This document shows positions 14,160 to 64,000 of a stretch of DNA of 64,000 nt, one piece after another. The stretch covers positions 126,298,295-126,362,294 of the forward strand of contig CM060977.1 of the NCBI GenBank assembly GCA_030765065.1, given 5' to 3'. Within the stretch, counting starts at the first letter, position 1; each line of letters begins with the position of its first letter. The stretch is from Deroplatys truncata (lineage: Eukaryota > Arthropoda > Insecta > Mantodea > Mantidae). A model generated the notes under the pieces. The model made no database searches. It was not told the DNA's origin and saw only the letters and a list, made by a program, of their open reading frames with translations. A program made the translations under genes and the position numbers.

Positions 14160-14935
14160 ACATCTGGTGTGTTGCACTCACACGACTTTCTCTACTCTTG
14201 TACAAACTATTTTTACAAACGCTTATTCTCCATCTACTTCATGTTTATCGCGATGTTAATCTTATTGTTAATTTTCTTGTAGAATGGTAGGGGAATTGGT
14301 AGGCTTTAAGCGATAGTCAAATATTTTAAGGGCTGGTTGCTATGTGCAGTATTCCATTCTCTTTGCATATCCAGGACATAAGAAAACAAATAACGAATTC
14401 CCATTTGAGAAAAGGAAAATTCAAACAAATAACAAGTAATATCTCGGAACTCGTTAACTCAAAAAAAAAATGTATATGATATACATTTGTGTTTAAGCGA
14501 ACTCAACATTTTTTGTGTAGAAAAAAATTTGCCTCTCACAGTTTACCAGCTATTAAAAAGTCATTCAAAAAGAAGAAGACTTTTGGAGACATTCTAAGAA
14601 AATTCAAGATAAAATTTTGTCATAAATTTGTCATTTTTTTTCGAAAAATATTCCAGGTAAAGGGTAATCTGAGGTGGGAGGTTTTCTTGAAAAACTTCGT
14701 GTCGCATCTTTGAATGATACTGAAACTAAATACCAAGCTTGGTATTTATCCGACTTTACATTTTTGAGTTATGCTGTTCATAGACACAAGGCACACACAC
14801 GGAACTTTTTCTAAAAGGGCTTTTGTTTGGATTCAGGTCACCTCAGAATATATTTCCGGTGAAAACTCGGTATCGAATTTTTGGGTGGAATGCAATACTT
14901 CCCCTTCTTGCTATACGTAGTAGAGAAAGTAAAAA
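14160..14935 (+). repeat. Rep1 copy, near complete
   Basis: It runs from GTTGCACTCACACGACTTTC to CTATACGTAGTAGAGAAAGT. All family boxes are present, with small deletions around 14430 and 14620. The microsatellite is reduced to a short CACACACACG. Confidence 0.8.
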
Positions 14936-15871: not shown

Positions 15872-16169
15872 AGTCGTCCTCCGTGGTGTAGTGGTTACCA
15901 TGCTCGCCTCTAGTTCCGAGGTTGCGGGTTCAAACCCGGCGGAGGGCGATGGATTTTTTTCGGGCGTAAAAATCCTTAGCATTGCTTCCTTCGGAAGGGA
16001 ATTAAAGCAGGTGATCACGTGTCGTAGATTTACGGCACATAAAAGAACCTCAAGCTTGATAAAGAGGCCTCTGAGCAAAATTACCGGTCTTTCACGCCCG
16101 ATATAGAATGGGACGCTAAGGTCCACAGTAGCTAAAGAACGTCCATAAATAAAACTCAATTTAAATTTT
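15872..16169 (+). mobile_element. SINE-A with 11-bp target-site duplication
   Basis: tRNA-like head with A box TGGTGTAGTGG and B box GGTTCAAACCC. The body contains CTTCGGAAGGGAATTAAAGC, AGATTTACGGCACATAAAAG and ATATAGAATGGGACGCTAAG, and the 3' end is CATAAATAAAACTCAATTTA. The direct repeat GTAGCACAAGT occurs at 15861-15871 and 16170-16180, showing insertion by LINE machinery. The intact promoter boxes suggest a young copy. Confidence 0.92.
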
Positions 16170-16195
16170 GTAGCACAAGTCGGAGATGAAGTATC

Positions 16196-18815: not shown

Positions 18816-20306
18816 CACTGGCATGCAAAACCTAAGGACGAAAGTAATATTCGCATGCCGTGACACTGCCAAGTAACATAGCTCGATGAAATAGTAGCAG
18901 CAGTAGAGAGAACTGCTACAGTAGGCAACTAAACGAAATATGCAATGAGACGAACAGAAATGCCACTTTTATTCATAGATCATAATCTACACTAAAGTCA
19001 ATACGACATATGATGACTCTCTAGATTTACAGAAACAGATATATGGTGCTTAAAATAGTGTATGATCACCACGGACAGCAATGCAAGCTCTGCATGGTGC
19101 TCCCATGCTGGCCACAAGGTTGGTAAGCAGTTCTTGTGGTAGGGCGTTCCATTCCTCCGTCAGCGCTGTTGACAACTGTTTGATGGTCTTTGGTGCATGT
19201 GAATATGCTGCAATGCGTCTCACCAAAGCATCCCACACGTGTTCGATGAGATTTAAATCGGTAAAACGGGCAGGCCAGCCCATTCGCCTAATATCCTCCA
19301 CCTGCGCTGTTCGATGCGGTTGCGCATTGTCATCCACAAAAACGAAGTCAGGGCCAACTGCATCCATGAAAAGACGCACATGGTGAAGGAGTACAGTATC
19401 ACAATAACGTTGACCAGTGAGCGTACCATGTTCAAAGATTTGGAGTTATTCGGTGCGCCCATGCAACATTATGCCTCCCCAAACCATAACACCTGGACCA
19501 CCAAAACGATCATGTTCAAGGATGTTCCTGGGTTCATTACGTCTTCCCACCTCTCGCCAAATGAGGGTACGTCAAGAAGCACAACTAAGATTGAATCTGC
19601 TCTAATCCAAGAAGAGCACGTGACCCCATCCTCGTTGGTCCAATTTTGATACTCTTGAGACCATCGCAAACGATGCCGCCGATGTGCGGATGTCAGTGGA
19701 ACACAACGTACTGGCCGTCGGGCAAAGAGACCACCTCTGTATAGTCGCCGTGTCGCTGTGTATCGTGAAATTGCGTGCCTAGCTGTCCTGTTAAATGCGG
19801 TAGCAATTGCATCCTCTGTTTGGCGTGGACGCCTTCTTGCCTATTGCACAATGTAGCGGTCATCTGCTGCTGTAGTTGAGCGTGGTCAAACACCAGCTGC
19901 CCTTGGGACAGCAGTGCCTGTTGTTTGGAAGGTTCCCCACGCACGTGAAACAATGCTGTGAGAAATTCCAAACTCCTGAGCAACACTCGTCACACTTAGC
20001 CCTTCTTCCAGTTTCCTGATGATTCTTCCCGTGTGAAGTCATTCAAATGGCCACGTTGCAATGAAGAACACTATTAAAGTGCACCGTAACAGCTCGCTAA
20101 TTGCCACACACCGTCTTATCCTGTTTCGTGAACTGTCCCGTGTTGCGGGACCAGACCCATTTGGCACTATAGGCTCGCTACACTCACGCCATGTGACATC
20201 TAGCTTTCTGTGTACGTGTGAGAGGCCTCTGGCAACATGTTACTACCAAGTAGTTCATTTGGTATGTTACTTTACCCATCTCGTCCTTAGGTTTTGCACA
20301 CCAGTG
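18816..20306 (-). mobile_element. Tc1-like DNA transposon, distinct family
   Basis: Inverted ends CACTGGCATGCAAAACCTAA (left) and CACTGGTGTGCAAAACCTAA (right, reverse complement) are followed by GGACGA on both sides. TA follows the right end, while CA (a decayed TA) precedes the left. The 1491-bp unit carries a transposase pseudogene on the minus strand and lies inside the MITE at 18575-20376. Confidence 0.88.
19050..20045 (-). pseudogene. Tc1-like transposase, decayed
   Basis: On the minus strand GRIIRKLEEGLSVTSVAQEF opens the helix-turn-helix region, with VSRAWGTFQTTGTAV following. The C-terminal third is a clean frame (19050-19379) with VFVDDNAQPHRTAQVEDI, then DLNLIEHVWDALVRRI, and a stop after DHTLF. 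I count 28 residues between the second aspartate and the glutamate, against 34 in active Tc1 enzymes, so about six residues are deleted in the catalytic core. Several frameshifts lie between the two parts. It would act in the nucleus on its own ends but must be inactive. Confidence 0.88.
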
Positions 20307-21448: not shown

Positions 21449-22592
21449 CTCTACGTGATCAAAAGTATCCGGACACCTGGCTGAAAATGACGTACAAGTT
21501 CGTGGCGCCGTCCATCGGTAATGCTGGAAGTCAATATGGTGTTGGCCCACCCTTAGCCTTGATGACATACTTTCCATCAGGTGCTGGAAGGTTTCTTGGG
21601 GAATGGCAGCCCATTCTTCACGGAGTGCGGAACTGAGGAGAGGTATCGATGTAGGTCGGTGAGTCCTGGTACGAAGTCAGCGTTCCAAAACATCCCAAAG
21701 GTGTTCTATAGGATTCAAGTCAGGACTCTGTGCAGACCAGTCCATTACAGGGATGTTATTGTCGTGTAACCACTCCGCCACAGCCCGTGCAGTATGAACA
21801 GGTGCTCGATCGTGTTGAAAGATGTAATCGACATCCCCGAATTGCTCTTCAACAGTGGGAAGCAAGAAGGTGCTTAAAATATCAATGTAGGTCTGCGCTG
21901 TGATCGTGCCACCAAAATAACAAGGGGTGCAAGCCCCCTCCAGGTGAAACACGACCACACCATAACAACCTCCGAATTTCACTGCTGGCACTACACACGC
22001 TGGCAGATGGCTTTCACCGAGCATTCGCCATATCCACACCCTGCCATCGAATCGCCATATTGTGTACCGTGATTCGTCACTCCACACAACGTTTTGCCAC
22101 TGTTCAATCGTGTAATGTTGACGCTCCTTACACCAAGGACGCGTGGCGTCGTTTGGCATTTTCCTGCGTGATGTGTGGCTTATGAGCAACCGCTCGACCA
22201 TGGAATCCAAGGTTTCTCACCTCACGCCTAACTGTCATAGTACTTGGAGTGGATCCTGATGCAGTTTGGAATTCCTGTGTGATGGTCTGAATAGATGTCT
22301 TCCTATTACTCTTTACGACCCTCTTCAAATGTCGGTGGTCTCTGCCAGTCAACAGATGAGGTTGGCCTGTGCGCTTTTGTGCTGTACATGTCCCTTCACA
22401 TTTCCACTTCACTATCACATCACAAACAGTAGACCTAGAGATGTTTAAGAGCGTCCCATTCTGCTGTTTCACGATGTCTAATGACTACTGAGGTCGCAGA
22501 TAATAAGTACCAGGCAGTAGGTGGCAGCATAATGCACCTAAGATGAAAAACGTATGTTTGTGGGGTGTCCGGATACTTTTGATCACATAGTA
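21449..22592 (-). mobile_element. Tc1-like DNA transposon, copy 2
   Basis: Ends CTCTACGTGATCAAAAGTAT (left) and ACTATGTGATCAAAAGTATC (right, reverse complement) match the element at 5760-7004, with TA on both sides. It is about 100 bp shorter because of internal deletions, and lies in the opposite orientation. Confidence 0.88.
21531..22459 (-). pseudogene. Tc1-like transposase, DDE core readable
   Basis: Better preserved than the copy at 5.9 kb. One frame (22128-22472) covers the DNA-binding region, with RSTVCDVIVKWKCEGTC and EVRNLGFHGRAVAHKPHIT. An overlapping frame (21677-22210) carries WSDESRYTIWRFDGRVWIWR, FQHDRAPVHTA and [16 protein letters not shown]. Between the second aspartate and the glutamate I count 34 residues, the DD34E spacing of Tc1 enzymes. 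About 80 bp just after the start codon is deleted and the two frames are shifted, so no functional protein is expected. Confidence 0.9.
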
Positions 22593-28447: not shown

Positions 28448-30505
28448 CAGAAATTAAAAATCTGATTTGTTGCACTCACATGACTTTCTCTTCGCTTGTA
28501 CAAACTATTTTGCAAATGCTTATTCCACATCTACTTCATGTTAATCGAGATAAACATTTGCAGACTATCTTATTGCTAAGTTTATTGTAGATGCGAGGGC
28601 AATATGGTAGGCTTTAAGCGATAGTCAAATGTTTTAAGAGCTGATTGATATGTCGAGTATTCCATTCTCTTTGCATTACCAGCACATAAAAAATCGAATA
28701 ACGAATTCCCATTTGAAAAAAGTAGTGGAAAATTCAAACTAATAACAAGGAATATTTTGGAAATGATTCACCCCCAAAAAATGTATTTGACATAAATTCT
28801 GTGTTTTAACGAGATCGACATTTTTTTGTGTAGTAAAATTTTGCTACCTCTTACGGTTTACCAGTTCTGCAAAAGTCATTCAGAATGAAGAGGGCCTTTG
28901 GAGACATTCTCAGAAAATTCAAGATATACATTACTATCTACATTTTTTGTATAGTAAAATTTTGTCTACCTCATACGGTTTACCAGTTCTGCAAAAGTCA
29001 TTCAGAATGAAGAGGACCTTTGAAGACATTCTCAGAAAATTCAAGATATACATTACTATCTACATCTTTTTGTGTAGTAATATTTTGTCTACCTCTTACG
29101 GTTTACCAGTTCTACAAAAGTCATTCAGAATGAAGAGGACCTTTGGAGACATTCTCAGAAAATTCAAGATATACATTACTATCTACATTTTTTTGTGTAG
29201 TAATATTTTGTCTACCTCTTACGGTTTACCAGTTCTACAAAAGTCATTCAGAATGAAGAGGACCTTTGGAGACATTCTCAGAAAATTCAAGATATACATT
29301 ACTATCTACATTTTTTTGTGTAGTAATATTTTGTCTACCTTTTACAGTTTACCAGTTCTGCAAAAGTGATTCAGAATGAAGAGGACCTTTGGAGACATTC
29401 TCAGAAAATTTAAGATATACATTACTATCTACATTTTTTGTGTAGTAAAATTTTGTCTATCTCTTACGGTTTACCAGTTCTGCAAAAATCATTCAGAATG
29501 AAGAGGACCTTTGGAGACATTCTTAGAAGATTCAAGATATACATTACTATCTACATTTTTTGTGTAGTAAAATTTTGTCTACCTCTTACGGTTTACCAGT
29601 TCTGCAAAAGTCATTCAGAATGAAGAGGTCCTTTGGAGACATTCTCAGAAAATTCAAGATATACATTACTATCTACATTTTTTGTAGTTATATTTTGTCT
29701 GCCTCTTGGTTTGCCAGTTCTGCAAAAGTCATTCAGAATGAAGAGGACCTTTGGAGACATTCTCAGAAAATTCAAGATATACATTACTATCTACATTTTT
29801 TTGTGTAGTAAGATTTTGTCTACCTCTTACTGCTTACCAGCTCTGCAAAAGTCATTCAGAATGAAGAGGTCCTTTGGAGACATTCTCAGAAAGTTCAAGA
29901 TATACATTACTATCTACATTTTTTGTGTAGTAAAATTTTGTCTATCTCTTACGGTTTACCAGTTCTGCAAAAGTCATTCAGAATGAAGAGTTCCTTTGGA
30001 GACATTCTTAGAAGATTCAAGATATACATTACTATCTACATTTTTTGTGTAGTAAAATTTTGTCTACCTCTTACGGTTTACCAGTTCTGCAAAAGTCATT
30101 CAGAATGAAGAGGACCTTTGGAGACATTCTCAGAAAATTCAGGATATGCATTTCATTTGCCATGAAAATATCTTAAACATATGATCTTTTAATGAAAAAG
30201 GTTAGAGGCATTTTTGAGAAAAATAAAACTGTTCGAAAAATGTTCCATGTAAAGGGTAGCCTGAGGAGGGGGGATTCTTGAAAATCTTCGTATCGTATCT
30301 TCGTATACTAAACTCAAATACCCAGTTTGGTATTTATCCGACTTAGTTTTTGAGTTATACAGACATACACACAGACATATTTCCAAAAATATTTATTTGG
30401 ATTCAGGGCACCTCAAAATATGTATTTCTGGCGAAATCTCCTTATCGAAATTTTGGGTGCAATGCAATACTTCCCCTACTTACTCTACGAGTAGAGAAAG
30501 TAAAA
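28448..30505 (+). repeat. Rep1 copy expanded by an internal tandem array
   Basis: The 5' part (CTGATTTGTTGCACTCACAT) and 3' terminus (TACTCTACGAGTAGAGAAAG) are those of a single Rep1 copy. It is about 2.06 kb because the middle segment is repeated in tandem (see 28810-30150). The CA tract is reduced to ACATACACACAGACA. Confidence 0.85.
28810..30150 (+). repeat. Minisatellite: 11 units of about 122 bp
   Basis: The anchor CCAGTTCTGCAAAAG (or a close variant) occurs at 28861, 28983, 29106, 29229, 29352, 29474, 29596, 29714, 29837, 29959 and 30081, a period of 118-123 bp. Units differ by a few substitutions and small indels. Because 123 is divisible by three, some runs stay open and give peptides with the motif SYGLPVLQKSFRMKRTFGDI. 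That is a by-product of the repeat, not evidence of a gene. There are no unique spacers. Confidence 0.95.
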
Positions 30506-32585: not shown

Positions 32586-32616
32586 CTCTTCTTCAAAGGA
32601 TTACCGTCCTCTTTGG

Positions 32617-32908
32617 TGTCGTCCTCCGTGATGAAGTGGTTACCATGCTAGGTAACTACATTACCTCTAGTTCCGAGGTTGCGGGTTCAAACCAGGCGGA
32701 GGGCGATGGATTCTTTTTCGGGGTAAAATCCTTAGCATGGCTTCCTTTGGAAGGGAAGTAAAGCTGATGGTCCCGTGTCGTAGATTTATGGCACGTAAAA
32801 GAACATCAAATCTGATAAAGAGGCCTCTAAGCAACATTTCCGATCTTTCACGGCCAATATAGAATGGGACGCTAAGGACTATAGCAGTTGAGAAGTGTCC
32901 ATAAAAAG
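32617..32908 (+). mobile_element. SINE-A, head insertion
   Basis: GTCGTCCTCCGTGATGAAGT starts the head; the B box is GGTTCAAACC. An extra 14-15 bp (AGGTAACTACATTAC) sits between the A and B boxes. CTCTTTGG flanks it at 32609-32616 and 32911-32918. The body is diverged relative to the 15.9-kb copy. Confidence 0.85.
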
Positions 32909-32924
32909 TGCTCTTTGGAGAACT

Positions 32925-36190: not shown

Positions 36191-36214
36191 ATTTCTGCCA
36201 CAACTTGTACACAA

Positions 36215-36494
36215 AAATAAATAGAGTTTTATTTTTGGACGCTCTTTAACTATTGTGGTCCTTAGCGTCCCATTCTATATTGGGTAATTTTGCTCAGAGG
36301 CCTCTTTATGAGACTTGAGGTGCTTTTCGTGCCGTAAATTTACGACACGGGACCACCGGCTTTACTTCCCTTCCGAATGATGCCATGCTAAGAATTTTTA
36401 CGCCCAAAAAGATCCATCGCCCTCCGCTGGGTTTGAACCTGCGACCTCGCAAACTAGAGGCTATCATGGTAACCACTACACCACGGAGGACGAC
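36215..36494 (-). mobile_element. SINE-A
   Basis: Minus-strand copy with B box GGTTTGAACC (as read on plus), TTTACGACACGGGACCACCG and TTAGCGTCCCATTCTATATT. Part of the CACGCC-containing motif is deleted (TTGGGTAATTTTGCTC). A short ACACAA repeat flanks it. Confidence 0.88.
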
Positions 36495-36939
36495 ACAAGT
36501 TGTAACGTTTTACCTTAATAATAAACTGAAGACTTTACAGATGTAATCTTGTTAACTACAAACATGCTGTTGCATCTGAAATCATGTATAATTGGCTCTT
36601 CATGGCTACTGTAGCAAAACGATGTCTAGAATCAATGATGTAATAATTTCTTGAGCGGTATCTTTTGTTTTTCGATATGCAGTTTTTACCGAAAGAAAGT
36701 ATCATTCTTAGTTATGTAATGGATTTGATTTTTGTTTCAGGTGATACTGCTGCTTGAAAATAATAGCCCAAATCTTCTTTCTGTGGTATAAAACTTGTAC
36801 AATGGGCTGGTAACCCACCACAGAAAAGTAACTTTCTCATAAACTTCAAAATATAAACAACAATTCCATATAGAAGAACTAAACACTGCTGAAACGAAAT
36901 GCAGGGCACAATGGACCAACACATAGAATGACTAAGTAA
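36495..36939. other. Non-coding stretch
   Basis: A minus-strand open frame of 156 codons (36712-37182) overlaps it. The frame is rich in L, F, S and C with no domain and is opposite LINE-like sequence, so I do not call it. Confidence 0.35.
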
Positions 36940-37207: not shown

Positions 37208-38479
37208 TAGGGTCTTTCAACAAGAGTGTCCTATCTTTGAACTTAAATAAAACACGTTCTATAAATGATAGAGGTTTATTTCTTTTTTATTTTGGAACAT
37301 AATTAATGTTATTACGCGTGGAAGAGAATATCAGTTAAGTGACCGCCGCGACTTCGTTGGGTTGCGCGTATACGGTTGACCCAGTTTTCAATGACAGAAG
37401 AACGTAAATTATTACCAACTTCACGAATAACACACATGATGTTATTCATAAGATCATTTACTGTTTCTGGCTTGTTGACATAAACTCGAGATTTAACATA
37501 ACCCCACAAGTAGTAATCCAACGGCGTTAAATCACATGAGCTCGGGGGCCAGTTAACATCACCACCACGGCAAATAATTAAACCTCTGAACTTCTCCTTC
37601 AAAAGATCGATCGTTTCGAGAGCAGTATGACATGTGGCACCATCTTGCTGGAACCAGATGTTTCTAAGATCCATAACATCCAATTGAGGCCAAAAATAGT
37701 CCCTTATAAGAGCCCGGTATCTTTTTCCAATGACAGAGCTCCTCCATCTTCATCTTGGAAAAAGTATGGACCAAGGATTCACCATACCAAAATCCACACC
37801 ACACAGTAACCTTTTGTGGATGAAGTGGTCGTTCTTGAATCTGCATTGGATTGTGATTGCTCCAATGGCGGCAATTTTGTTTGCTAACACAACCATCCAT
37901 CCAAAAGTGGGCTTCGTCACAGAAGATGATTTTTCGACAAAAATCCGGGTCAGCTTCCAATTGCTCCATAGCCCAGTCAGCGAATACACGGCGCAACCTA
38001 TGGTCGTTGGGCTTTAGTTTTTGAGTTAACACCATTTTGTAAGCATGAAACGCCAAGTCCAGATGCAGAATTCGGCAAGTTGTGGTCGGCGAAAGCCCCA
38101 ATTCTTGCACTCGACGAGCAATTGATTTGTTTCCGTTCTCGCGTACACTCTCACGAACGGCGCCTATGTTTTCGTTGGAGCGCTTACGTCGATTACGTAC
38201 AGGCGTTCTTTGATCGCTGACAGAACCACTTCTTTCAAATTTATCGATCAAACGCCGAATCGTTCTCTCGCAGGGACGATTATGCACACCATAAACTTCA
38301 CGCAATACACGAACAGATGATCCATTTTGATAATTTCTAGCGTTGCCGAATGCTGTAACGTTCCATGGCTATTTGTCAATATCAACTGTAAGCACATGAA
38401 CAAAATTACTGCTGTAACTCAATAACAACGGCAGCTATCACATGTTAAAGATAGGACACTCTTGTTGTGCCTGTGCGGG
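37208..38479 (-). mobile_element. Mariner-like DNA transposon
   Basis: CAACAAGAGTGTCCTATCTT near 37218 recurs as its reverse complement near 38447-38466. TA lies at the outer edges, although the right-hand outermost bases are diverged. The 1.27-kb unit holds one transposase on the minus strand. Confidence 0.85.
37312..38366 (-). pseudogene. Mariner-superfamily transposase, frameshifted
   Basis: The start MERYSIRQR is followed at once by a stop. A second frame (38305-37664) gives VYGVHNRPCERTIRRLIDKF, IARRVQELGLSPTTTCRIL and IIFCDEAHFWMDG. A third (37683-37312) gives WFQQDGATCHTALETID, RGGDVNWPPSSCDLTPLDYY and ends HLTDILFHA. These are paired helix-turn-helix DNA-binding domains and a DDD catalytic core. 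I count 36 residues between the second and third aspartates. A small N-terminal deletion and one frameshift near 37670 inactivate it, but decay is light. Confidence 0.92.
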
Positions 38480-39167: not shown

Positions 39168-39415
39168 GACCCCGTAGCTCAGTCGGTAGAGCACCTGCCT
39201 GCTGTGCGAGGGGTCCCAGGTTCGATTTCCGGCTGGGGGTGGGAGCTTTTCTCTAGCCAAGACTAATCCCTATCCGCCCCAGAGTCTGGAAATATGAATA
39301 AGTGTGGATGTGTGTATGATCTACTGGTAAAAAAAAGGTTTAAGAAACCCGACAAAGCAATAAGTTCCAAAGGAAAGGCCGCCGATAAGACCAATGTAGT
39401 TAAAGGCGGAGTATA
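39168..39415 (+). mobile_element. SINE-C, complete head and body
   Basis: GACCCCGTAGCTCAGTCGGT carries the A box, then GCACCTGCCTGCTGTGCGAG and the B box GGTTCGATTTCC. The body has TTTTCTCTAGCC, CCCCAGAGTCTGGAAATATG and AAGGAAAGGCCGCCGATAAG. The head is close to a real tRNA, but the same body follows it as at 24.5 kb, so I call a SINE, not a tRNA gene. Confidence 0.8.
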
Positions 39416-46666: not shown

Positions 46667-46678
46667 CACGACTGTACA

Positions 46679-46970
46679 AAAAAAATTGAGTTTTATTTAT
46701 GGACGCTCTTTAACTACTATGGTTCTTAGCGTCCCATTCTATATTGGGCGTGAAACACCTGTAATTTTGCTCAGAGGCCTCTTTATCAGGCTTGAGGTTC
46801 TTTTACGTGCCGTAAATCTACGACACGGGACCACCGGCTTTACTTCCCTTCCGAAGGAAGCCGTGCTAACGATTTTTACGCCCGAAAAAATCCATCGCCC
46901 TCCGCCGGGTTTGAACCCGCGACCTTGGGAACTAGAGGCTAGCACGGTACCACTAGTCCACGGAGGACGA
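46679..46970 (-). mobile_element. SINE-A with 12-bp target-site duplication
   Basis: A complete minus-strand copy, with TTTACGTGCCGTAAATCTAC, GGACCACCGGCTTTACTTCC and the B box as GGGTTTGAACCC. CACGACTGTACA occurs at 46667-46678 and 46971-46982. The A-box side reads AGCACGGTACCACTAGTCCA. Confidence 0.93.
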
Positions 46971-46982
46971 CACGACTGTACA

Positions 46983-52250: not shown

Positions 52251-53527
52251 AAGTACACGTTATAAAACTCACGCACTCAAGATACTTTTCAGAGGAAGTT
52301 GATGCAAATTTGCCTGCCATTTATTCAATTGTTTCGCTACAAAGTGAAAGGTACAAAAGCCTGATCCAACTTTAGACACCGCATGAGCTTCACCTTTGCT
52401 GGAAACAGGTTCAAAGTCGTCCGCTAAGTGTTATTGCAACAGGGGACTTTCAGGAAAAGACGATGCCGTCTCGGCTCATTGATTGAAGATGTCCAAGATA
52501 GTTGAGGCAGAGTTTTCTCTCTCTCTGCCCCTTTGCGATCTTGCCGAGATTTCTCCCTTCCACCCTTCCGGCTACCCAGCCGAGGTTTCTACCTAAATTT
52601 CTCTTTATCTTCTCTCCCCCAGCTTTCATTCTGCCCCTGTTGTTTCACTCCCCTATACTGTAACTCCTCCCCTCAGGTTCCGCCATTAAAGTGTACCTGA
52701 CCCATCTCTTAGAGTCAAAGCATTGCATAAAACGTGTTTCAGATTTGTCAAAAGAACACAAATAAATATTCACATACGTAAGGAGTAACTTGAATGTCAC
52801 TCTAAGCTGCAGATTTCAGAACAGAGCTTGTATAATTATACATCGAAATTATGTGTGTGAACCAAAAATTAAAACTTTCAGGTACGTCGGGATGATAATC
52901 AATGGTTAGTCCTTTGTTTAAGTTTTGCAGTTATTCACTAAGATTAAGCGAGTAACTTTATATAATAAGTGAATTATATACAAGAATATTTCTATCGTTT
53001 CCGTTGTGACGGTGCTTTGTCCTTATCAGTTTAAGTGTGTATAAATCGAAACTATGGACATTATTTGAATTCATTGGTTTCTTGCAATGAATCAGTATAT
53101 CTGCTTCTCTGACGTTGAAGTTAAATACTGATTAGTGGAATGATTGAAACATTTCCCAGAAAGGCTGTGTAAATAGATTTGAGTATTTTCTGTACTAATT
53201 ATTGGCGCAAAGGTGGAATTAGGATGAGAAATGGGAAACTTCAATCAAACAAGAATTATTCTTATTATCAGTACTCAAAGTAGCACAGTGTGAGCCATGA
53301 AAAATCTCTTCCTTCCTCAAGTACCATGTATTAACTAACTTTCTTTGTATTCTTTTTTAATTGTTTCGTTTGTATAGCCCCCGTTAATTTCTGCGATCAC
53401 ATCGGGGGCTTTACCTTGAGAAACAACTACTTCGACTATAGGCTTTTAAGCTCTTGATTTTACTAATTTTCACTAGAAAATACATTCACTACCAAATTCA
53501 CATTTCCAGACTGTACGGAGGGTAAAA
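52251..53527. other. Non-coding stretch with a C/T-rich segment
   Basis: A pyrimidine-rich tract lies at about 52510-52680. No coding signal recognised. Confidence 0.4.
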
Positions 53528-53816
53528 TTAAATTGAGTTTTATTTTGGACGCTCGATAACTACTATGGTCCTTAGCGTCCCATTCTATATTGGGCGTGAA
53601 ATACCGGTAATTTTGCCCAGAGGCCTCTTTATCAGGCTTGAGGTTCTTTTACGTGCCGTAAATCTACGACGCGGGACCCCCGGCTTTACTTCCCTTCCGA
53701 AGAAAGCCATGCTAAGGATTTTTACGCCCGAAAAAAATCCATCGCACTCTCCCGGGTTTGAACCTGCGACCTCGGAACTAGAGACTAGCAGGTAACCACT
53801 ACACCACGGAAGGCCA
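53528..53816 (-). mobile_element. SINE-A
   Basis: Minus-strand copy with TTAGCGTCCCATTCTATATT, GTGCCGTAAATCTACGACGC and the B box GGGTTTGAACC. A GAGGGTA repeat flanks both ends. Confidence 0.9.
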
Positions 53817-53854
53817 CTACCGAGGGTAGTGAATTATTCTGATTAAAGAAAAAT

Positions 53855-54266: not shown

Positions 54267-55401
54267 TAGGGATGAGACCTAGATACTGTCGATACCTCGA
54301 TATTCGGCAGTACCGAGGTTTTTCTAATACTTTTAGATAAACCTTCGATACGTTTTCCATACTTTTAAATTTTTAAACCTTGTTGAAAGTTTTTGTGTTT
54401 AACTTTATGCTGCATAAGGAAAGAAAGGAGTCGAGAATCCACGTCATTGCCTCGCACTTATCTCCAAAGGGTTGCTGGACTATAGTTGTTTATAGACCTT
54501 GACTGCGTTTCCAGCGAGTGGATCAATGCACCATTCCATAAACTCTTGTGTCTAAATGAAAACATGCAGACAATGGGGGAAGGAGGAGGGGTACTCATGT
54601 AACATACAGCGTTAACTAGTTCCGAATCAAGCTTCATATTTCTTCTTTCCTTTCATCTATCAGTGTGTGTTTACTCAGATCAAACTCGGATCACGAGTAT
54701 AGCTTACGGATATAACGCACGACTAATTTCCTTTAAAAGAAACTTTTCAGCACACAATATAGTTACATAAAAAGGGAAGCAAAGAAATCGTTATTAATAT
54801 TATTATTATTATTATCCTTGACTAGCAATAGGGGATATATAATCTGCAACATTATCAAGATAAAAAAGTGCTGCCAATGGAGAATGTCAAACAGGAACAT
54901 TTTCGGAATTAGTGTACAATGCAACATTGATTACATGCATTTACACACAGAAAACTATTAATAAGAACATAATTCAGCTTGTCGTCCTCCGTGGTGTAGT
55001 GGTTACCATGCTGGCCTCTAATTTCCGAGGTCGTGGGTTGAAACCCGGCGGAGGGCGATGGATTTTTTCGGGCGTAAAAATCCTTAGCATGGTTTCCTTC
55101 GGAAGGGAAGTAAAGCCGGTGGTCCCGTGTCGTAGATTTACGGCACGCAAAAGAACCTCAAGCCTGATAAGGAGGTCTCTGAGCAAAATTACCGATCTTT
55201 CACGCCCAATATAGAATGGTACGCTAAGAACCACCGCAGTTAAAGAGCGTCCATAAATAAAAAAAAACTCAATTTAAAACAACTCACTCAGTGAAAAAGC
55301 AATCGTGTTTACAGTTTTGTATAAAGTGGGTATCCAGTATCGGTGCTCAAAATGAGTATCGGTATCGAGTATCGAGAAATAGTGATATCGTCCCATCACT
55401 A
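54267..55401 (+). mobile_element. hAT-like non-autonomous element, copy 1, with a SINE inside
   Basis: The left end TAGGGATGAGACC faces right end TAGTGATGGGACGATATC (reverse complement). The neighbouring 8-mers TTCAGATT and GTGAGATT match at 6 of 8. Both ends carry CGATAC-rich subterminal motifs. The interior is homologous to the element at 61979-63870 in the opposite orientation, including the (TTA)n tract near 54800. No transposase is present. Confidence 0.7.
54981..55275 (+). mobile_element. SINE-A inside the hAT-like element
   Basis: GTCGTCCTCCGTGGTGTAGT to AACTCAATTTA, with B box GGTTGAAACCC and the full body. Sequence on both sides aligns continuously to the other hAT-like copy, so this is a clean later insertion. 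Confidence 0.9.
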
Positions 55402-55462
55402 GTGAGATTCAACGAAGACCATCTGGAAAGTGAAATGTAGTTATATCTCCCAACTATTCTGT

Positions 55463-60506: not shown

Positions 60507-60515
60507 CAAAAGCTC

Positions 60516-60765
60516 GTCGTCCTCCGTGGACTAGTGGTACCATGCTAACCTCTAGTTCCCGACGGCAGAGGTCGATGCATTTTTCTGGCGTAAAAACCAG
60601 TGGTCCCGTGAAGTAGATTTACGGCACGTAAAAGAACCTCAATCCCGATAAAGAAGCCTCTGCGGAATATTACCGGTATTTCACGCCCAATATAGAATAG
60701 GAGCTAAGGACCATAGTAGTTAAAGAGCGTCCATAAATAAAACTCAATTTAATTAATTTTTATTC
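60516..60765 (+). mobile_element. SINE-A with internal deletions and 9-bp target duplication
   Basis: CAAAAGCTC occurs at 60507-60515 and 60766-60774. The head starts GTCGTCCTCCGTGG, but the B box is destroyed (CGGCAGAGGTCGATG) and about 30 bp near the TTCGGAAGG motif is missing. The body otherwise matches the family. Confidence 0.9.
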
Positions 60766-61080: not shown

Positions 61081-61643
61081 AATTCTCCAACTGATTGTGC
61101 ATTTATATTTATAATGCTTAAACATTCACTCTGGCCACAATCCTACAATTGAGGGGCCCAGTGGAAAAGAGCCACATGCAAGCTGTCCAGTAATTTTGGA
61201 ACAGGGAGACGTCGATGCCATTTGGTATCATAACTGGTAACTCCTAGCAGAATAGCATGTGTCCATTCTTTGAAAGAGAGCAATAAATGTTTGCTAACTT
61301 ACAGGACTGACACATTCCCAGAGGAAAAAAGATCCATGCTATTTATTTCTGTAGGTTTTATGAGTCAATACTTCTCATTGGCCAGCTTGATTTCAGACAA
61401 CCAAACAGAAAGTGTCTCTCAAAGTTTGTTTATAAGTTTCCAAAGATAGCAGCAGAAGGTGTTGATATTAGTGCTGTTGAAAAATAACATACAACAATAC
61501 GTGTGAAGTAGTTACAGATCCAAGTAATATGAATTTATAAAATGCTTAAAACTCATTTAATTACCAATTTACCTGCTATGATTGGAACATTACCTACAAA
61601 GAATAATACAAATGTGAGAACATTCCAAAGAGGCTTTCTGTTT
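61081..61643. other. Non-coding stretch
   Basis: Nothing recognised. Confidence 0.4.
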
Positions 61644-61785
61644 AATTATTTATTTTCTTCAGCATTTTCTAGGTGGGCCCACCTAGAAAATGCTGAAGGA
61701 AGTGAGAAATAATGGAATAAATTACCTTAGGAGCGAATGTAAAAGTAGGTGTGAACTGGTCAATATCTGGTCAATTATTTATTTT
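61644..61785 (+). repeat. Templated insertion with a perfect palindrome and 13-bp direct repeats
   Basis: AATTATTTATTTT occurs at 61644-61656 and 61773-61785. Between them, 61657-61698 is a perfect 42-bp palindrome (half-site CTTCAGCATTTTCTAGGTGG plus G). Bases 61675-61771 are identical over 97 bp to 62154-62250. The left half of the palindrome is the inverted copy of the start of that 97-bp segment. Confidence 0.9.
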
Positions 61786-62135
61786 AAGTTGCTATAAAAC
61801 TGCATAATACCAAACCAATATTAATTAATACTTAATGATATTTGCAAAAAATGATCTAGTTTGTGCAACACGTGTTGATATAACAGCAGGAGTTTACATT
61901 TCCCATACAAAATCAGATTTTCTAAATTCCCTTTTCCTGATAAAACACACTCTGATGGCATGTGCCCATTTTCCCTACAAGTGATGGGACGATACCACTA
62001 TTTGTCGATACTCGATACCGATACTGATTTTTGAGCACCGATACTCGATTCTCGGTACTCACTTTATAAAAAATGTAAAGGCGAGAGATTGTTCACCTAA
62101 GTTCTTATTAGTAATTTTCTGTGTATAAACGCATG

Positions 62136-63108
62136 GGCAAAGTTGCCTTTCTTGGGCCCACCTAGAAAATGCTGAAGGAAGTGAGAAATAATGGAATAAA
62201 TTACCTTAGGAGCGAATGTAAAAGTAGGTGTGAACTGGTCAATATCTGGTGCCCACCTACCCGCCCTTTTTTGGTGTTACTTATATAGGTGAATTGTGAT
62301 ACGAACACGAAAAAACATGGCCATCTTCACGGTAATACTGACGCTCATTCGGAAGTGCCAACTTAAGAAATTGGGGAATCCGCTAAATATGCGATGTGTT
62401 CTTCTTCTTCTACTTATTATTATTATTACTATTATTATTATTATTATTCATGTAGTATAGCCGCAGAAAAAAGCGCCACGCATTCAGAGAAAGCTGTGCA
62501 GAAGAGGCTAACCTTACATGAATTCAGAAACCTAAGCTTATATAAAAAAACCTAACCTAAGGCTAACCTTGTGTGAATTCAGAAACCTAAGCTTGTATAA
62601 AAAAAACCTAACCTAAGGCTAACCTTGTGTGAATTCAGAAACCTAAGCTTATATAAAAAAACCTAACCTAAGGTAACCTTGCGTGAATTCAGTAACCTAA
62701 GCTTATATAAAAAAAAACCTAACCTAAGGCTAACTTTGCTTGAATTCAGAAACCTAAGCTTATATAAAAAGAAACCTAACCTAAGGCTAACCTTGTGTGA
62801 ATTCAGAAACCTAAGCTTATATAAAAAGAAACCTAACCTAAGGCTAACCTTGTGTGAATTCAGAAACCTAAGCTTGTATAAAAAAAACCTAACCTAAGGC
62901 TAACCTTGCGTGAATTTAGAAACCTAAGCTTATATAAAAAAACCGGAAACCGAGCGAGTTGGGAATATATCTCCGCATTTGGCGGCATTACTTATTCATA
63001 TATTGCCAGCATTACGTTACAGCCAGCGAATGACATACAGTGACATCTGTTGGACATATAAGACATCACTTTCGTCGCTAATGTGGGCCCAAGAAAGGCA
63101 ACTTACCC
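62136..63108 (+). mobile_element. Unclassified 973-bp element with 26-bp inverted ends and 8-bp target duplication
   Basis: GGCAAAGTTGCC then TTTCTTGGGCCCAC at the left pairs with GGGTAAGTTGCC then TTTCTTGGGCCCAC at the right (reverse complement), 24 of 26. AACGCATG occurs at 62128-62135 and 63109-63116. It interrupts the hAT-like element and contains the 54-57-bp minisatellite. There is no coding sequence; 8-bp duplications fit hAT or P-type superfamilies. Confidence 0.8.
62500..62945 (+). repeat. Minisatellite of 54-57 bp, 8 units, with CCTAACCTAA cores
   Basis: The anchor CCTAAGCTT occurs at 62531, 62586, 62642, 62696, 62753, 62810, 62867 and 62923. Each unit also has AACCTAACCTAAGG and GTGTGAATTCAG or a variant. 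The peptide motif NLSLYKKKPNLRLTL in one frame is a by-product of the repeat. Confidence 0.93.
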
Positions 63109-63238
63109 AACGCATGTAACTAATTTTGTATTGTACGCTAATTGTAATTCCAAAATTTGACATTCTCCAACTGGCAGCAATTTTCTTTATCTTGAGAATA
63201 CTATAGGTTATATATTCCCTTTCTCAATGATGATGATA

Positions 63239-63268
63239 AATAATAATAATAATAATAATAATAATAAT
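63239..63268 (+). repeat. (AAT)n microsatellite
   Basis: Roughly nine AAT/TAA repeats inside the hAT-like element, at a position matching the (TTA)n of the other copy. Confidence 0.85.
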
Positions 63269-64000
63269 TTCGTTGCTTCCCTTTTATGTAACTACATTTT
63301 ATGCTCAAAACTCTCTTTTAAAGAATTTTCTATCTATATTACAGAAATTAGACTACGGTATACCTGTAAGCTACGCTCGTGACCCAAGTTTATAATTTGC
63401 GTAAATCCAAACTAACAGATGGAAAGGAAAAAAACAACTTTTTCCATGCGCTGCATTATCTCGCATCTCAAGTTCTAATTTGCTTCTTCTGGATGGATTC
63501 GCAGATTTTGGTCACCGGAGCAGGTAACTAATTTAAGGCTACAAGTTACATGGGTACCTCTATTCCTTCCCACATTGTTTTGCATGTTTTCATTTATACA
63601 CAATAGTCTATGGTATGTAGCATTGATTCACCCACAGGAAACGCAGTCTAGGTCTATCAAGCACTATAGGGCAGAAAAGTTTTGGTGACAGGTACAAGAC
63701 AATAACGTGAAGTCTCCACTCCTTTCAGCATAAAGTTTCTAGCATAAAGTTAAACGCAACATATTCAATAATGCAAAACTTAAAAATGTAAAAGTATCGA
63801 AGGTTTTACTCAAAGTATTAGATATACTTCGATACTACCGAGTATCGAGAGTATCGATGTCCCATCCCTAGTCCCTACAATTGTAGACACTCTATTTATT
63901 TATTTATTTACTTCATAGGTATCCAATGCATTATTCTTAAAGAACATTATTTGAAAAGATAATAACTTGAATTTCAAATGCAAAAAAGCTGTCAATTGAT

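Follow-up and report, generated by a model that had tools for sequence, protein, structure and literature searches.

The window analysed here, a stretch of 64,000 nucleotides from the mantis Deroplatys truncata (contig CM060977.1), contains towards its right-hand end two transposon-like elements, one inserted in the other. The outer, hAT-like element (61980–63871, forward strand) is flanked by 8-bp duplications, TCCCTACA, at 61972–61979 and 63872–63879. It contains a nested element of 973 bp (62136–63108, forward strand), which belongs to a large family, has inverted ends and is flanked by 8-bp duplications of its own, AACGCATG, at 62128–62135 and 63109–63116. A relative of the outer element on the reverse strand (54289–55403) lacks the nested element and carries its site only once, with one base of the 8-mer different, thereby representing the empty site. 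The names hAT-like and transposon are assigned from the ends and the lengths of the duplications, and not from a protein. The nested element has a terminal inverted repeat with exact arms of 22 bp (62140–62161 and 63083–63104), and in its interior a 57-bp unit containing CCTAACCTA, which resembles the insect telomere repeat, is repeated in tandem about 8 times (62505–62942).

Several further repeats and predicted genes were found in the window. A tandem array with a 122-bp unit in about 11 copies is located at 28814–30152, and related pieces occur at several other places. A SINE-like repeat is present in seven copies (15873–16180, 32616–32911, 36203–36496, 46675–46973, 53520–53820, 54976–55290 and 60511–60760), six of which have an exact flanking repeat of 7–12 bp (8–12 bp in the clearer ones) and the seventh none; at least one of these repeats, that of the copy at 54976, is not convincing as a duplication, and the duplication at 60511 starts with CAAAA after TT. 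Open stretches at 19469–19837, 21677–22213 and 37664–38365 match the Pfam families HTH_Tnp_Tc3_2 (transposase), DDE_3 (endonuclease) and DUF4817 (helix-turn-helix), 8 of the 20 stretches listed having been scanned. A single tRNA is predicted, tRNA-Ser (gct) at 39168–39241, and no known RNA family was detected in the window at Rfam gathering scores.

Insert and donor

Upstream of the outer element, an insert of 116 bp (61657–61772) is bracketed by two identical copies of the 13-bp sequence AATTATTTATTTT on the forward strand (61644–61656 and 61773–61785), which is found at only these two places in the window and forms the target site duplication. Most of the insert (61674–61771, forward strand) is an exact 98-bp duplicate of 62153–62250, with 98 of 98 bases identical. 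The initial annotation had recognised an identical nearby copy but made it 97 bp long, starting from 62154, and placed it 480 bp upstream of its source; the offset is 479 bp, and a gap of 381 bp separates the direct copy from the donor. At its left the insert is capped by 61657–61681, on the reverse strand, which is the exact reverse complement of 62153–62177. The inversion had likewise been recognised, as a repeat of the first 24 bases of the copy, but comprises 25, the last 8 of which, TGGGCCCA, are common to the direct copy. From left to right, the insert therefore reads as donor 62177–62153 reversed, donor 62153–62250 direct, and one extra C. At the right edge CTGGT is followed by this C (61772, forward strand) and then by the 13-bp duplication; the C corresponds neither to the donor, which has G, nor to the target, which has T, and represents one filler base. 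No poly(A) is present in the insert.

Because the reversed cap and the direct copy overlap in TGGGCCCA, they form a perfect 42-bp palindrome without a spacer (61657–61698), in agreement with the initial description of both this palindrome and the 13-bp direct repeats. In a survey of 162.5 kb, consisting of the window and 38 family loci (L003–L040), no other perfect palindrome with a G+C content of 25% or more exceeded 22 bp, the length of one at 14727, and palindromes exceeding 42 bp were TA runs. The longest flush direct repeat obtained by chance in 200,000 random window intervals of 115–116 bp was 11 bp, when a slack of up to 2 bases was allowed.

The family of the 98-bp unit is large, and a search of the 4.29-Gb genome for it returned 984 first-look candidates. 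Among the 40 of these 984 that were scored, the only perfect matches are the insert and the neighbouring copy; the other full-length matches reach at most 96/98 identical bases. Two rare bases are particularly informative. At position 62221 the donor A is found in none of the 38 other best-scored copies (37 have G and one T), and at 62228 the donor G is found in one of them, so that all 38 lack one or both. A 27-mer carrying the two bases together occurs exactly twice in 4.29 Gb, in the donor and in the insert. This test is conservative, since the 38 compared copies are the best scored of the 984. At the level of sequence, these matches identify the neighbouring element as the donor, copied in cis. 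Moreover, all 38 other best-scored copies run on upstream into the end of the family, where a few are diverged, so that no isolated 98-bp copy is among them.

The nested element's terminal inverted repeat contains, at its inner end, the start of the donor segment (62153–62250, forward strand), and the 8-base palindrome TGGGCCCA located here (62153–62160) is where the two inverted pieces join. The initial annotation had correctly placed the start of the source in this inverted end, and the joining point lies at this GGGCCC inverted end. The donor is also bracketed by a direct repeat, GCCCACCTA, at 62156–62164 and 62251–62259, and the direct copy ends exactly where the second of these repeats starts (62251). 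Because of this coincidence, a circle excised between the two repeats was considered, but such a circle would not yield the inverted cap.

Empty site and uniqueness of the junction

The flank into which the insert was placed (61380–61974) is a dispersed repeat that the outer hAT-like element also entered. Searching the genome (818 contigs) with the left flank (61380–61656) gave 152 first-look candidates, of which 40 were scored, and revealed at least 40 matching places, 39 of them outside the window. Seven paralogous copies of the target repeat with 80–83% identity (L045–L051) were taken from these 39 places for examination. All seven are continuous across the site, containing one 13-mer and no insert; the 13-mer is exact in L046 and L047 and differs by one base in the other five. 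The matches to the left and right flanks overlap by exactly 13 bases in five of the seven (L045, L046, L048, L049 and L051) and by one base fewer in L050, while the copy L047 is broken up soon after the site, so that its main right-flank match falls at another position. The absence of any difference between insert and donor over 98 bases, together with the identical 13-mers, indicates that the event is recent relative to the flanking repeat with its 80–83% relatives.

The palindrome junction, TTTCTAGGTGGGCCCACCTAGAAA, occurs at one place in the 4.29-Gb genome, allowing up to two mismatches, and this place is the locus described here; the insert is thus not a member of a mobile family recognisable within this tolerance. 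The proposal of a recent insertion made from a nearby element is borne out by the seven examined empty relatives, the donor-private bases and this single junction, and the arrangement is not one that recurs at many unrelated loci. Comparing the window with itself (dust filter on, arrays at 28.7–30.2 and 62.4–62.95 kb excluded) revealed no other pair of segments of at least 30 bp and more than 95% identity lying within 6 kb of each other. Exact pieces of the 98-bp unit or of the terminal repeat were not found in viral contigs, nor was a piece of the unit found in bacterial and archaeal genomes, the 231-bp target region in phages, or the nested element in plasmids.

Routes to an inverted insert

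The insert is very probably the scar of a single repair event, in which a staggered break was followed by copying of the nearby transposon in cis and by joining of the inverted pieces inside TGGGCCCA. The old repeat would have been broken at 61644–61656 with a stagger of 13 bases, as inferred from the duplicated 13-mer, and repair then copied the nearby transposon in cis, as the donor-private bases show. Two pieces running in opposite directions, 62177 to 62153 and 62153 to 62250, are joined within the self-complementary TGGGCCCA, as can be read directly from their overlap. Finally, the 116-bp insert and its duplication would be produced when the ends were joined with one filler base and the 13-base overhangs filled in; since the 13-mer is duplicated, both overhangs would have been retained and filled in. 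The position of the copy only 479 bp from its own donor despite many other donors, together with the lack of poly(A), suggests that a break was repaired from DNA close by, and argues for repair of a staggered DNA break rather than reverse-transcribed RNA. The initial annotation had offered a snap-back reverse-transcribed RNA as one source of the insert. This proposal is unlikely on the same observations, because a retrotransposed RNA acting in trans would not explain why a neighbouring member of a large family served as the donor.

How the two pieces met can be narrowed down by their pairing energies. Two ends terminating in TGGGCCCA pair at −11.4 kcal/mol, whereas a forced snap-back hairpin on a 3′ end with this octamer has a stem of 2 bp and +1.9 kcal/mol, and the minimum-energy fold of the single copied strand contains no structure at its 3′ end (DNA parameters throughout). 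Thus, two strands meeting is favoured over one strand snapping back, and the most likely course is that two separate strands paired via TGGGCCCA and were then filled in. Both 3′ ends of the break might have copied the same donor strand, so that their tips, both ending in TGGGCCCA, annealed; alternatively, one growing strand might have switched at TGGGCCCA onto the opposite donor strand. Annealing and strand switching leave an identical product, so the sequence cannot tell them apart.

The first of these options, in which the two ends of the staggered break copied the same transposon strand and the identical tips were joined via the self-complementary octamer, is a tentative suggestion. Identical tips cannot normally pair, and an ending in a self-complementary octamer would allow them to be joined. 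The 3′ end at the left of the break can be aligned with donor positions 62178–62189, immediately adjoining the first copied base (62177), with 7 Watson-Crick and 4 G-T pairs in 12 positions, a match noticed post hoc and terminating in a G-T pair. Of shuffled primers, 1.5% equalled this number of pairs and 2.4% a weighted score; of the 918 window 13-mers that end in TTTT, 13 and 16 did so, respectively. Among nearby positions, the pair number was equalled at 1 of 137 on the same strand, which is its own, and at none of 137 on the other, and the weighted score at 3 and 1 of 137. In terms of duplex energy, 23 of 2000 random 15-mers were as good or better, and in the pairing with the best energy the final 5 primer bases remain unpaired (DNA energies). 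We regard this complementarity as a hint of priming. At the right end of the break only 3 Watson-Crick pairs and 1 G-T pair of 12 are formed with the donor at 62250, which amounts to no complementarity and leaves two-ended priming unsupported on this side. Furthermore, a 13-base 3′ overhang is an unusual form for an accidental break, which counts against the repair reading. If same-strand copying did take place, it would be the DNA-repair counterpart of LINE twin priming, with the palindromes of transposon ends setting the joining point.

An unlikely alternative to the meeting of two strands is that one DNA strand ending in TGGGCCCA folded back on itself and was extended by 17 bases, and that the opened hairpin was captured at the break. 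Fold-back inversions, mostly of about 5–34 bp, do occur at yeast breaks, and transformed single strands with an inverted microhomology of 8 nt can fold intramolecularly, as seen from identical barcodes in 16% of the 342 barcoded inversions, as described in PMC11724301. According to PMC11292364, polymerase theta is able to extend a stem of two base pairs, which is what TGGGCCCA permits, with a 4-base loop. Against this, the hairpin is unfavourable by the energies given above, an additional opening step is required, and the complementarity of the break end at 62178–62189, itself only a hint, would be left without a role. Of the hairpin-primed repair synthesis of the initial annotation, the repair synthesis is borne out, and the hairpin would be the less likely route.

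It is quite improbable that a LINE reverse transcriptase generated the insert by twin priming, in which both nicked ends would have primed on one RNA of the local element and the two cDNAs annealed at TGGGCCCA. The 13-bp duplication and the TTTT/AA cut are compatible with an endonuclease of this kind, and both fit human L1. The left primer also pairs well once G-T pairs are admitted, and the geometry matches that of twin priming with microhomology at the junction (PMC2912911). However, the insert lacks poly(A) as well as a LINE 3′ end, terminating instead in CTGGT and the filler C, and its template was the neighbouring copy despite 984 first-look candidates in the family. In addition, the seven SINE-like copies of the window, inspected by eye, do not display a consistent TTTT/AA cut.

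A fold-back chimera arising in the library or the assembly is very improbable, as an artefact would create neither a 13-bp duplication of a site that is single in all seven examined relatives nor a copy with one filler base. That the insert represents a separate, small family of mobile elements, which its target duplications outwardly suggest, has a negligible chance of being correct given the single junction in the genome at up to two mismatches and the continuation of all 38 other examined 98-bp units upstream into the terminal repeat.

Comparison with known systems

The locus is apparently a clear, isolated example of a type of repair that is already known. It constitutes an unusually complete natural record, as donor, empty site, stagger, filler base and strand change can all be read, and it suggests that the palindromes of transposon ends can act as joining points and thereby create new, longer palindromes. 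A search of one open-access library listed no papers on inverted templated insertions with target duplications, or on templated insertion together with target duplication, palindrome and snap-back.

The insert resembles the proximal repair-mediated duplications described in primates (Pace et al. 2009, PMC2671141), which have a donor less than 5 kb away, a copy shorter than 619 bp, filler bases and no poly(A). The donor of the insert lies within 5 kb on the same chromosome, and the insert combines a filler base and a target duplication with the lack of a poly(A/T) tract. None of the 39 proximal primate cases has such a tract, and 6 of them show target duplications (PMC2671141), which range from 4 to 21 nt over the whole table, compared to 13 bp here. 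The 33 of 39 proximal cases without a target duplication would, by analogy, count against the repair reading. An inverted cap is not reported in the main text of that study, from which the words inverted, palindrom, hairpin and fold-back are absent, and its breakpoints are those of primates.

Twin-primed, 5′-inverted LINE insertions share with our insert the opposite copies of one template, annealing by microhomology and flanking duplications (PMC2912911), but differ from it in that here poly(A) is lacking, the template was adjacent DNA, and the piece copied is DNA transposon-like.

Insertions at yeast breaks provide the parallel for the inverted arrangement. Two inverted fragments of one locus have been described there, with 2–11 bases of microhomology at the join and 0–4 bases at the break ends, and they overlap in rad27 mutants (Yu et al. 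2024, PMC11724301). Our insert likewise combines overlapping copies of a single locus in opposite orientations, joined at a microhomology, and its inner join (8 bases) and outer joins (0 bases) fall within these ranges. In contrast, the yeast donors are distant and the insertions, found mainly in mutants but also in stationary wild-type cells, were made at HO breaks with 4-nt overhangs, whereas here the donor lies 479 bp away. The insert also carries a 13-bp duplication, while the term target site duplication is absent from the main text of PMC11724301. The spacer between the inverted microhomologies, about 2–20 bp in the rad27 mutants of that study, is 0 here, as the octamer is itself a palindrome. 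The locus shows, in a natural chromosome, a templated insertion of the overlapping inverted type known from yeast.
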